A stretch of DNA of 64,000 nt from Candidatus Micrarchaeum acidiphilum ARMAN-2 (GTDB taxonomy: Archaea > Micrarchaeota > Micrarchaeia > Micrarchaeales > Micrarchaeaceae): NCBI GenBank assembly GCA_009387755.1, contig GG697241.1, forward strand, positions 1 through 64,000, given 5' to 3'. Both the position numbers and the translations under genes were made by a program. Shown here one piece after another: positions 28,969 to 35,480 of the stretch (positions are counted from its first letter, which is position 1; the number at the start of each line of letters is the position of its first letter). The notes under the pieces were generated by a model. That model was not told the origin of the DNA. It worked only from the letters and a program-made list of their open reading frames with translations, and made no database searches.

Positions 28969-29172
28969 TTATATGCGGGACTTGTAGGATTCTATGTCCT
29001 CGGGTTTTATTATGCTTCGGTGGTGCCTTTTTGCATTTTCGACAGCATATTTGGCTATTTCCGCGGCATTTTCCGCAAGCGCCTTCGCGATGGCTTCCGC
29101 AGCATCGTCCGTGACCATTATGCCAGAATCCTTTCCGAATAGCTTTTTTATCGCAGAAGTAGCTATTTTCAT
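28969..29172 (-). CDS. Archaeal histone-fold protein
   Basis: 67 residues from ATG 29172 (GGT upstream); GTG 29181 would add three. The three-helix histone fold is visible: TSAIKKLFGKDSGIMVTDDAAEAIAKALAENAAEIAKYAVENAK followed by KRHHRSIIKPEDIESY, the usual loop and third helix. Arg and Lys at the fold ends and the R/KPEDI motif match HMf-type histones, though the RHHRS loop is distinctive. Wraps DNA as dimers. Divergence from HMf makes its tetramer-forming ability uncertain. Confidence 0.88.
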   Translation of the reverse strand: MKIATSAIKKLFGKDSGIMVTDDAAEAIAKALAENAAEIAKYAVENAKRHHRSIIKPEDIESYKSRI

Positions 29173-29269
29173 ATAGACCACGTTTCAGCACTCAAGATCT
29201 TCATCACAAATCAGATCTTTTGTTCATCATCTGAGTTATTTCTGCGACAAAGTATATAAAAAGTGCGCT

Positions 29270-31990
29270 TCACCTTGTTTTGCTCTTCTTGGCCCTTTCG
29301 GTGTGCACGTCGCGCAGCATGTTCCTTACCCCCCTGTCGACCTTGTCTTCAGTTATCAGGTCTCTTTCGAGGACTGGAATGACTTTGGAGCGCAGCACTT
29401 CGCCTGCATTTCCGTCAACATCAAAGTCCATGAACGTGTATCCGTTCACCGACCCGAGGGGAGTTGTTCCTATTGGTATCTGTATCCTTTTTAGGAACGG
29501 ATTGTCTTCTGCATCCTGCATGCTCGGTATTTTTATCATGAGTTCGCCGCCTGCAGTGGCTACCTGGCACACATGATCATGCCCAGCTATGTGGAGCACG
29601 GCGTTGGTCCTCTTCTTTTCGACAAAGCCCAGCATGCTGCCTGGGTTTCCGGTACCCAACTCGTGGCTGGCCATGGTTTCTATACCATCAATACGTATCT
29701 GGTCCGCGCCGAATTCGCTGCCGCCGATCCCCATTATGCGGTTGTCTGTTTCGAGAGCCTTCTTTACCATCTCGTAGGCTTTCTTGTCCGGAATTCCGCT
29801 GGCTTCGGATATTTCCAAGTACCCTCTTAGGTGGGCTTTTATGTGGCTCACAACATTGGTTGATTCATCATTTCTCCATTCCCTGTGGGTGTTGTTGTAA
29901 TGGTTTCCTGATACAGATATCACTGCGCCGCCGCGGAGAATCACATCGTCTATAAGCTTCCACATGTGGCTTAGGAGTATTTCTGGCTGCTCGTCAATGT
30001 TGTGTATTGACTTGCCGATGCTCTCTCTTAGCATTTCCGACATTTTCTTGTACACCTCCGCTTCGGAGAAGCCCATCCTTTTTAGAGCTGACTCGTACTT
30101 TTGTGGAAAGTCTGCAGTGTTGCCGTACCTCGTTACAACTGCATAATAGTTCAGCAGGCCCTCCAACATGTCGCCATCTAGCACTATAACGTTGGGCTGG
30201 CGTTTTATGGCATCGGATACTGCTGCATCGAGAAGCTTGAGCTTGCTGTGGTTCCCGACGTGCACGTCTGAGAATGCTGCTATTTTAAGGTTTATTATTC
30301 CGTGCAGCGGCTTCTCGTCTTTTCTTGCTGTCATTTTTTCAAGGTTGCCGCTTGATGCAATATCCGAAAGTTCGTGGTCCTTGAGCTCTGAAGGCCTTTT
30401 GCTCATTGCGACGGCAAGATCAAGCTCCTTCCTTCTGAGCGAAGCTTCGTCGTTGTTCTGCTTCTTACCGGAATTTTTAAGGCTGCGCAGCCTCCTTTTG
30501 AGTTTTCTGCTTTCTTCCCTGTCATTTTCCTTGCGCTTCTCGTAAAGATATCTGTCGCTCAGTATTTCGTGTTCTATTGGCTCGCTTTCAGGTATGCGCA
30601 AGAACGAGGCACCCGAGCTCAGATATCCCTTTTCGACCGCCTGCGTGTCCTTTGTGTTTATGCCTGCATTCCACATGGATGCGAGGCCCTTAGTGCTCCA
30701 GAACGGTCCCTGGGATAGCAGCACCAGCTCCGAAGGCGACCCGTTTTTGAGAGGTTCTATGGAAAATGAGGTGAACTCATGCTTTCCTGTAACGAATATG
30801 TTTAGGAGTTTTGCCTCGAGCGCCTTCTTGTCAAGCACGCCGTTTACTGTTAGTATCTCTAATCTGTTTGCTGGCAGGTTGTTGCTCTGCCTCTTCCTGG
30901 TTCCCATTATAACAGATGGATCGTTGGATGTGATTACATTGAACGTGAACGCGCCGCTGTTGTGCTCTTCCAAGGAAACTTTTTCGGACTGTATTGTTAT
31001 GTCCCTTTTTCTACCGAATGCATTTCTGAGCTCTGTCATGTAGTAGGAATGCGCGAGTTCGTTTATTATAGAGTGTGAGCCCCTTGACGTTATTGCATTG
31101 TGCACGAATATGTCTACCTGCTTGTTCTCTTTGTCCTTTGAGGCTTTTTCGTTGCCTTCCCTCACGTCGGCTAGCCTGTTGTTGAGCAGTCTTATTGAAT
31201 TTGCGATCTTTTTGGCCCTGGAAACAAGCTCTTCATATTTTGCGGTATCCTTTTCTACGGTCTTGAATTCCTCCGAAACCGCCTTTTCTGCTTCAATCTT
31301 CTCCTCTAAAGTTTTCTTTATCTGCTCTTCCTCTAGGTTGCTGAGTGTTAGCAGGTACAGGCTGTTCAGCAGCTCTAGCCTGTGCTCAGCCTCGGTTCGC
31401 TCCTCTGTATTGACTTTGAGTTTGATTTCTATGTTTTTAAGTTCCTCTAGTATTCTTTTGTTGTTTGGATTATGCGCAATCTGCTGCTCTGCGGCAGCCT
31501 TGGAATGCTCTACCGCGTTTATTATAGCCTTCCTGCCGGCTATCAGCTCTATTTCCTCGCCCATCCTGTCCTCTATCCGTTCCCTGTGGAATTTGAAGTC
31601 CAGGCCAAGGTCCCTTATATACTCGTCAATATTGCGCTGGTCCGATTCGGACGTTATGTATATTATCTTGCAGTCTTCAGGAGTCTGCGCGACCAACCTT
31701 TCCAGATGGGGCTTCATTACTGCGGCAGTATCACGTATGTACTGCAGGTTTTCCATTATCACGTCGAGGTAGTCGTTGCTCCTGTTTGAGCCGCGCTGCG
31801 GGAAAAAAGGTAGTATGCCGCCGTTTATAACCAACATGTTTGGTTTATCTTCCGGAGGAATATTGCGCAGGTATTGCGCCATTCCTATGAGGTTGTCGTC
31901 GCTCATGTATTTTGTTGCACCGCCAATATCAGACAAAACCAGTATGTTGAACTTGCGTTTTGGATTTCCGCCCACAGGTTTTTCCTCCAA
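29270..31990 (-). CDS. Large double calcineurin-like phosphoesterase protein with coiled coil
   Basis: 906 residues from TTG 31990, which has GGGTGAG five bases upstream. The C-terminal domain (about 566-850) has all metallophosphoesterase motifs: SDVH (Asp575, His577), DGDMLEG (Asp607), SGNHYN (Asn696-His697), ASHELG (His776) and AGHDH (His804, His806). The N-terminal region (about 14-150) repeats the fold pattern but has SDIGG and INGG in place of DxH and GD, so it looks inactive. Between them lies a charged coiled coil (about 165-310), a mixed region and a basic segment (RKLKRRLRSLKNSGKK). It is not Mre11 by layout. Function unknown; nuclease or phosphatase acting on nucleic acid is possible. 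Confidence 0.8.
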   Translation of the reverse strand: MEEKPVGGNPKRKFNILVLSDIGGATKYMSDDNLIGMAQYLRNIPPEDKPNMLVINGGILPFFPQRGSNRSNDYLDVIMENLQYIRDTAAVMKPHLERLVAQTPEDCKIIYITSESDQRNIDEYIRDLGLDFKFHRERIEDRMGEEIELIAGRKAIINAVEHSKAAAEQQIAHNPNNKRILEELKNIEIKLKVNTEERTEAEHRLELLNSLYLLTLSNLEEEQIKKTLEEKIEAEKAVSEEFKTVEKDTAKYEELVSRAKKIANSIRLLNNRLADVREGNEKASKDKENKQVDIFVHNAITSRGSHSIINELAHSYYMTELRNAFGRKRDITIQSEKVSLEEHNSGAFTFNVITSNDPSVIMGTRKRQSNNLPANRLEILTVNGVLDKKALEAKLLNIFVTGKHEFTSFSIEPLKNGSPSELVLLSQGPFWSTKGLASMWNAGINTKDTQAVEKGYLSSGASFLRIPESEPIEHEILSDRYLYEKRKENDREESRKLKRRLRSLKNSGKKQNNDEASLRRKELDLAVAMSKRPSELKDHELSDIASSGNLEKMTARKDEKPLHGIINLKIAAFSDVHVGNHSKLKLLDAAVSDAIKRQPNVIVLDGDMLEGLLNYYAVVTRYGNTADFPQKYESALKRMGFSEAEVYKKMSEMLRESIGKSIHNIDEQPEILLSHMWKLIDDVILRGGAVISVSGNHYNNTHREWRNDESTNVVSHIKAHLRGYLEISEASGIPDKKAYEMVKKALETDNRIMGIGGSEFGADQIRIDGIETMASHELGTGNPGSMLGFVEKKRTNAVLHIAGHDHVCQVATAGGELMIKIPSMQDAEDNPFLKRIQIPIGTTPLGSVNGYTFMDFDVDGNAGEVLRSKVIPVLERDLITEDKVDRGVRNMLRDVHTERAKKSKTR

Positions 31991-34400: not shown

Positions 34401-35480
34401 TTATCTTGAGTACGCCTGCGACATCCTAGCAGAAAGCCTTGAAAGAGCGCGAACCTTGTCCCTGCCCTCTATTCTGGAGCGAGAAACTATCTCTTTCATC
34501 GAGTTTATCACATCGTCGTAGTGCTTGAGATTTATGGGGTATGGAATACCGTCCTTACCGCCGACGTTGTAGGCATACATAACCGGATCGCGCTTGTATA
34601 TCTCTGTATCGTATATGAGCGAGGATATCATGGCTATTGACCTAAGCGTCCTGCCGCCCATGCCAGGTATTGACAGTAGTTCCGCATAGTCCTTTGGCTG
34701 CATCTCGTTGGCGAACCTTATAAGTTCGCGGGCTCGTTTGGACAAATCTGATCCGATAATGTAGTGCCGCCTTGGAAATTCCAGCGCCGTTGCGCTGGTT
34801 CCGACAAGTTTGTTGATGTCTTCGCGTACTGCCCTGAGGCTGCCGGTCTTTACGCTGCTGTTTTTTGAAAAGGTAAGGTCAATCGCCTCAACGCCTGCGC
34901 TGCCTGTCACCGCGCCGTTGGTCTCTTCTGTGATGTCTTTTCCCAGAAGCGAATCCAGCACCTGGAACCTGACAGCGTATTCAGTTTCTCCGAGCATGCC
35001 CTGCTGTACTATGCACCATCTTGCGTTTTTCGAGAATATGAATGCGTGGTGGTAAATTGAAACCCTGTCGTATACCAGCGCGGAATCTATTTTTGCTATA
35101 ATCCTGCTTTTCGACGCGAATTCATCTGCTACTGCAGACCTTGATAGATAGTCGGCGCCTGTCGCTATTTGGGAGGGCGTAGATGTGCCTTCGCTGCCCT
35201 TGCCTCCTGCTATAAATATGTCGGAATTGAAATTCAGAGCTTCCTTGAGCGCCGCTATGGTCACCGTGGTAGTGCCGCTGCTGTGCCAATCATACCCTAT
35301 GGCACACGCCAGCGCCTGGAACCATTTCGGGTCGGCTATTCTGCGCACCAGCTCGTCTGCACCGAATTCGTCCATTATTTCCTCTGTTATTATGCCGCCG
35401 AGCTTTACCATTCTGCCGAAAAGCCATTTTGGAGCCCTGCCTCCGTGAAGCGGCAGGTAAGTCAATTTCTGCATGATCAT
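34401..35480 (-). CDS. DUF763 family protein
   Basis: 359 residues. The N-terminal LPLHGGRAPKWLFGRMVKLGG, DPKWFQALACAIGYDWHSSGTTTVTIAALKEAL and the mid-region WCIVQQGML are characteristic of DUF763, a family found in archaea and some thermophilic bacteria with no firm function. A helix-hairpin-like LLSIPGMGGRTLRSIAMIS in the C-terminal half is a plausible nucleic-acid contact. ATG 35480 overlaps the stop of the upstream secreted-protein gene (ATGA). Confidence 0.85.
   Translation of the reverse strand: MIMQKLTYLPLHGGRAPKWLFGRMVKLGGIITEEIMDEFGADELVRRIADPKWFQALACAIGYDWHSSGTTTVTIAALKEALNFNSDIFIAGGKGSEGTSTPSQIATGADYLSRSAVADEFASKSRIIAKIDSALVYDRVSIYHHAFIFSKNARWCIVQQGMLGETEYAVRFQVLDSLLGKDITEETNGAVTGSAGVEAIDLTFSKNSSVKTGSLRAVREDINKLVGTSATALEFPRRHYIIGSDLSKRARELIRFANEMQPKDYAELLSIPGMGGRTLRSIAMISSLIYDTEIYKRDPVMYAYNVGGKDGIPYPINLKHYDDVINSMKEIVSRSRIEGRDKVRALSRLSARMSQAYSR

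Follow-up and report, generated by a model that had tools for sequence, protein, structure and literature searches.

What protein is encoded by the long reading frame at 29270-31990 of the window (the whole stretch of DNA analysed, 64,000 nucleotides of Candidatus Micrarchaeum acidiphilum ARMAN-2), and what might a chain carrying two phosphoesterase-like domains do? The frame is uninterrupted and encodes 906 aa, as a sequence-only reading of the locus had described, to which the minus strand can now be added; it starts with TTG at 31988-31990 and stops at 29270-29272, the 906 codons being given with the stop included in the coordinates. The version in a congener has 95% protein identity and a dN/dS of 0.051 overall (0.05 rounded), with 0.037 in the N-domain, 0.036 in the coiled coil, 0.076 in the linker and 0.048 in the C-domain. 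As dN/dS is low in both the N-domain and the C-domain in this comparison, both halves are under selective maintenance; the gene is real, and purifying selection acts on both domains. A 70 aa archaeal histone-like ORF (28969-29181, minus strand) adjoins the gene and is matched by NF043032 at E 5.5e-10 with 39.5 bits, under the model's cut-off of 50. This adjacency, pointed out earlier, holds at the locus itself, but among the 61 loci compared it is shared by the congener alone, and a histone link is thus ruled out as a trait of the family. Elsewhere in the window, 34404-35480 encodes a DUF763 protein (332 bits) of unknown function, two genes past a histidyl-tRNA synthetase.

The C-terminal half (residues 563-880; 29351-30304, minus strand) is a calcineurin-like phosphoesterase according to Pfam PF00149 Metallophos (E 1.9e-6; 28.9 bits vs. 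a cut-off of 21.5; best stretch at residues 568-612). Every metal motif of that fold, which had been read from the letters as intact, is found there (DxH, GD, GNH, H and [HD]xH), with the ligands D575, H577, D607, N696, H697, H776, H804 and H806 all present. Across 56 distinct members of the family, all positions given here lying on the minus strand, motif I (D575-V-H577; 30260-30268) has the Asp in 56/56 and the His in 55/56, motif II (G606-D607; 30170-30175) has Asp in 44/56 and Glu in 12/56, and motif III (G695-N696-H697; 29900-29908) has N696 in 54/56 and H697 in 56/56. Motif IV (H776; 29663-29665) is invariant, motif V (H804-D-H806; 29573-29581) has H806 in 56/56 and either His (31/56) or Asp (23/56) at residue 804, and E709 (29864-29866), found after motif III in 56/56, is an invariant signature of the family. 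The ligand set is complete in 53/56 members if Asp or Glu is accepted at 607, and in 41/56 with Asp only. The exchange of Glu for Asp at this position is an unusual metal-site variant (L113, L114, L117-L125 and L129); all 12 such members belong to the Woesearchaeota phylum, with Asp in 34/34 Micrarchaeota rows. According to PMC10721889, the ligands of DP1 are D360, H362, D404, N450, H497, H560 and H562, with H451 as the catalytic histidine. The C-half carries this set, D-x-H/D/N/H/H-x-H, and H697 corresponds by motif to H451.

The N-terminal half is predicted to be the same fold, interrupted by a long helical arm. In the full-length model (12-row alignment; mean pLDDT 78.7, pTM 0.78), phosphoesterase strands occupy residues 13-112 and 331-478, and the stretch between them (~115-325) is helical; because these strands flank the helices, the predicted coiled coil (about 115-325) is an insertion inside the N-terminal domain, placed after motif III, with the strands resuming at ~331. 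It therefore does not join the two domains, as had first been thought. The first part of the domain (residues 10-114; 31649-31963, minus strand) holds degenerate motifs I (D21-I-G23), II (G57-G58) and III (around 113-117), followed on the same strand by the predicted helical insertion (residues 115-325; 31016-31648) and by the second part (residues 326-483; 30542-31015), which holds degenerate motifs IV (N356) and V (around 402-404). The two domains are joined instead by a charged linker, helical in the full-length model (about residues 484-562; 30305-30541, minus strand). The linker is only 15-57 residues in most members of the Woesearchaeota phylum, with 199 in L127, and the coiled-coil region is 91-97 residues in six short-form members (718-764 aa), namely five from the Woesearchaeota phylum and one from Micrarchaeota that groups with them. 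Some members of the Woesearchaeota phylum have an N-terminal extension weakly resembling winged-helix DNA-binding domains (LexA 7.9e-5, 22.8 bits vs. a cut-off of 23.7; MarR 0.019; below curated cut-offs), and searching this extension against the PDB gave a MarR-type chain at 0.0029; a second N-terminal extension searched against the PDB gave nothing.

Predicted alone from 54 rows, the N-half reaches a mean pLDDT of 87.4 and a pTM of 0.84. Comparing this model with VIA-align places DP1 first: 8ppt is matched at Z 18.9 over 233 residues with an rmsd of 3.5, and six DP1 entries lie at Z 17.8-18.9 (231-233 residues, rmsd 3.3-3.5). The eukaryotic B-subunits follow at Z 12.9-16.0, with 16.0 for that of Pol delta and about 12.9-14.6 for the others (Pol epsilon, zeta and alpha); lower matches include the best Mre11 at 13.7 (MjMre11), LpxH at 13.2 and Vps29 at 12.7. 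The full-length model agrees, with DP1 at Z 16.1 over residues 11..483. The models thus suggest that the N-half is nearer to DP1 and the eukaryotic polymerase B-subunits than to Mre11, a preference that depends on VIA-align and may be explained in part by greater aligned length. Foldseek returned no match for the N-half in the PDB at E <= 0.001, with Mre11 in the top rows.

Although the fold is present in the predicted structure, the metal site of the N-half is not. DxH plus GD is found in the N-domain of 0/56 members, and what remains varies: Asp or Glu at position 21 in 48/56, G57 in 50/56, D117 in 52/56, N120 in 51/56, the His of motif IV in 26/56 and that of motif V in 37/56, with both His in 23/56 and one or none in the others. 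As the remnants are uneven and the half conserves residues of its own, it looks like a former phosphoesterase which has lost its metal site to differing degrees while keeping its own signature. Predicted structure and profile comparison together support the earlier description of two phosphoesterase domains, the one intact and the other degenerate, in a nuclease-like layout, with the metal residues of the N-terminal copy replaced, and a shared fold with asymmetric loss of the site is very likely.

The two halves are also linked by their profiles. Profiles built for each half from the 56 distinct members can be aligned across 244 columns, with a score of 58 and a probability of 94; motifs I, II, IV and V coincide, and motif III nearly does. 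Because E-values from a single pair of profiles are uncalibrated, the controls bear the weight: reversed profiles score 13.0 and 13.4, 20 column shuffles reach at most 15.1, and the best of 42 comparisons with 21 other clusters is 23.2. When Micrarchaeota rows alone (34) are used on both sides, the link falls to 32% over 48 columns, indicating that the apparent duplication signal needs the wide family. The link between the halves is consistent with an internal duplication in the chain, which we consider likely. In comparison with other families, the C-half profile matches the DP1 domain at 95% over 206 columns vs. Mre11 at 59% over 49 columns, and the N-half profile gives 55% for DP1 and 6% for Mre11, values that drop to 1.0% and 1.6% if only Micrarchaeota rows are used. 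By profile, the C-half is nearer to DP1 than to Mre11, these being the two families compared.

No library family covers this architecture, in keeping with the earlier judgement that the protein is neither Mre11, nor the small subunit of DNA polymerase D, nor any recognised family; a profile match to a characterised family of the exact architecture was looked for and none was found. For the 906 aa protein, NCBIfam gave nothing over cut-off and no Mre11 or SbcD model up to E 10, PF04042 and the NCBIfam DP1 models gave no match up to E 10, and in Pfam Metallophos alone was over cut-off. When 12 members were aligned and searched, Metallophos models were found in up to 9/12 of them, and any other family in two at most. 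Searching the PDB by sequence gave nothing below E 0.09, the matches being mostly coiled coils. Among PHROGs, phrog_7339 'DNA repair exonuclease' matches 8/12 members; in its strongest case the best stretch is confined to the C-terminal half (6 of the 12 members looked at). PADLOC matched 0 families for the 906 aa protein up to E 1; relatives have weak JetC/LmuB matches (E 0.00036 or weaker), which probably come from the coiled coil, and membership of a known anti-phage defence family was rejected, the weak PADLOC matches being in relatives only. A viral or plasmid origin was likewise rejected, with no relative in the viral contigs, phages or plasmids searched. A search of open-licence papers, with few subscription journals and no bioRxiv preprints among them, found no published description of such a protein.

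The protein belongs to an old and patchy DPANN family, as judged from whole-genome scans covering two DPANN phyla. Strong matches (E below 1e-30) occur in 49/301 genomes of the Micrarchaeota phylum, of which 24 belong to the same family as the window (f1, own genome included), 23 to a second family of the order (f2) and 2 lie elsewhere in the class; at the tool's threshold 65/301 genomes match, the other 16 being weak. The Woesearchaeota phylum (Nanoarchaeota in GTDB) has matches at E <= 0.001 in 50/371 genomes, and in 33/371 these fall in a frame at least 680 aa long, a count which leaves out one 2540 aa frame and was made by hand, as was that of 49/301. A pattern scan of genome contigs gave 20 loci, of which 18 carry a Micrarchaeota or Marsarchaeota title and 2 a Woesearchaeota one. 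From the 33 long-frame matches 20 were taken, and with L073 and L074 they make up 22 aligned rows, which span both halves, L127 being doubtful. The full set holds 61 loci, and dropping 5 identical copies leaves 56 rows; L127, whose ligand set is incomplete, and L143, which lacks part of the N-domain, are inside the 56-row counts and outside the 54-row N-half alignment. In a tree made by a quick method, members from the Woesearchaeota phylum and from Micrarchaeota form two sides (SH-aLRT 99) with one exception, and the long branches of L125 and L127 are placed with little certainty. The exception is L150 (9433-11724; genome G013, f1), from the window's own family, which groups inside the Woesearchaeota-phylum short form (SH-aLRT 100), suggesting that it was transferred or is an old paralogue. 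On the tree, the labels f1 and f2 require 4 and 3 changes, and so old paralogues, loss or transfer are called for.

Neighbouring genes offer a hint of function, and no fixed operon is seen among the loci compared. In one genome the tandem gene is flanked by DP1-DP2 and, on its opposite side, by PCNA. All five short-form loci compared from the Woesearchaeota phylum (5/5) adjoin a RecJ-like gene (NF053576, 74 bits vs. a cut-off of 360) and have PCNA six genes off, these loci being syntenic and not independent; TatD, ERCC4 and LigD 3'-phosphoesterase genes occur near the tandem gene in single lineages. A HerA-like ATPase lies within about 5 kb in 4/23 f2 carriers (G058, G171, G184 and G206 by hand count, G184 with a HerA-like fragment only), accompanied by endonuclease IV in three of the four. 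Endonuclease IV and a HerA-like ATPase are found as a close pair in many f2 genomes (e.g., G058:C38, G206:C28 and G171:C16), and as the pair is widespread in f2 genomes lacking the tandem gene, a fixed operon of the two with it was rejected. At most other loci the neighbours, judged by eye, are transporters, synthetases or unknowns, with no DNA-repair neighbour, and scanning gene lists from the compared loci by eye turned up no Rad50-like neighbour. The repair-type neighbours are a hint only, because they were picked after looking. Judged by eye, the genes around one Woesearchaeota member (L073; 7403-13981) seem to encode a trypsin-type protease and a metalloprotease, along with two proteins that resemble a small nuclease and a caspase.

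Which known system does the protein most resemble? In DP1 (PF04042/PRK04036; 5ihe, 8ppt) the calcineurin-like fold and the ligand set of the C-half are found together, and DP1 is the best structural match of the N-half; the tandem protein differs in having two copies per chain, the N-terminal one dead and holding an inserted coiled coil, and in matching no DP1 model. A second DP1-like subunit, docking on DP2 or another part of the replisome and giving DNA polymerase D an alternative or regulatory exonuclease, would fit the structural match of the N-half, the profile of the C-half and the one gene lying between DP1-DP2 and PCNA. However, this adjacency to DP1-DP2 holds at 1 of the loci searched with the DP2 seed, and the own genome has a normal, separate DP1 (457.7 bits with NF003118). 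In addition, no OB-type barrel is seen before or between the domains in the secondary structure of the predicted model, where the first strand of the N-domain starts at residue 13 and both the insertion and the region between the domains are helical. The gene is also carried by 49/301 genomes, whereas PF04042 finds a match in 25/31, and a DP1-like subunit is accordingly held to be unlikely. The 6/31 genomes with no PF04042 match (G008, G009, G011, G013, G014 and G015) include four that are >= 90% complete, and in them DP1 is either divergent or missing; replacement of DP1 by the tandem protein was rejected, as genomes with neither and with both exist. According to PMC6741145, Thermococcus DP1 binds GINS and GAN, a GINS-associated nuclease.

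Mre11/SbcD shares the fold and ligand set. It is a single-domain protein that works as a dimer with Rad50, and one could imagine a DNA-end processor of this type whose pseudo-domain and coiled coil do the work of a second Mre11 protomer and of the Rad50 arms. Two phosphoesterase domains per chain with a helical arm, the place of Mre11 at the head of the Foldseek results for the N-half and the HerA-like neighbours would suit this idea, yet no ATPase domain is matched in the protein by Pfam, Mre11 is encoded separately in the own genome and in 31/31 genomes searched, the arm is a short insertion and the profiles favour DP1, making it quite improbable. A further candidate is a phosphatase or a nucleotide or cyclic-nucleotide phosphodiesterase acting on something other than nucleic acid, with the N-half as a sensor or regulatory part. 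Evidence for it comes from the full-length model, for which the highest VIA-align score of the C-half is the archaeal phosphodiesterase 1s3l at Z 12.6 (Mre11 about 11), in a comparison that gives one best alignment per PDB entry and does not display the C-half against the DP1 entries. Rv0805, a mycobacterial phosphodiesterase, is top in Foldseek for the same model and the sole match at E <= 0.001, with DP1 fourth at 8.6e-3. Both 1s3l and Vps29, alike in fold to the C-half and the N-half respectively, are small single-domain proteins (165-203 residues in the listed chains). The nearness of the C-half profile to DP1 among the families profiled, together with the helix-turn-helix-like extensions and DNA-repair neighbours of some members, argues for a nucleic acid; a small-molecule enzyme is therefore considered rather unlikely.

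The reading preferred here, at somewhat better than even, is that of tandem phosphoesterases of the DP1/B-subunit kind, in which a live C-terminal copy cuts a phosphodiester and a dead N-terminal copy acts in cis. One fold occurs twice in the chain and is linked by profile, the site is lost in one copy and retained in the other, and the gene is under purifying selection and spread through DPANN. The C-terminal copy would keep a two-metal site with the ligand set of DP1 and Mre11, H697 would fill the catalytic-histidine role, and the bond hydrolysed would most likely be a DNA phosphodiester, RNA or a small nucleotide being less likely. The N-terminal copy, with its site lost and the coiled coil inserted, would act in cis together with its arm, most likely as a scaffold, substrate guide or partner-binding platform. 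The scaffold role is proposed by analogy with the inactivated B-subunits of eukaryotic replicative polymerases, which are thought to serve as scaffolds after loss of the metal site (PMC4996933). Those B-subunits, compared here by fold alone, differ in that they contain an OB domain and lack a second, catalytic copy in the same chain. The tandem protein is thus probably an enzyme that cuts DNA or RNA and carries its own inactive partner, nucleic acid being a reasonably well-favoured substrate and a role in replication or repair falling slightly short of an even chance. The same fold also serves phosphatases and nucleotide phosphodiesterases, and none of the results here bears directly on the substrate. 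More speculative, and doubtful as a whole, is a DPANN-specific repair or replication nuclease derived from an internally duplicated exonuclease domain of the PolD type; one copy would have turned into a dead scaffold, as an independent parallel to the eukaryotic B-subunits, and its partner in the chain would have kept catalysis.

Two copies of a DNA polymerase D exonuclease-type domain, one live and one dead, in an unnamed DPANN protein constitute an architecture without a library family. DPANN genomes are very small, yet about 700 to 1,100 codons are given to this unnamed enzyme, which is also a candidate nuclease, in organisms about whose repair systems little is known. Because its members show graded loss in the N-domain, 23/56 still keeping both His, the tandem family lets one ask within a single chain how an exonuclease of the phosphoesterase kind becomes a scaffold, the step which was taken in the B-subunits of eukaryotic polymerases.
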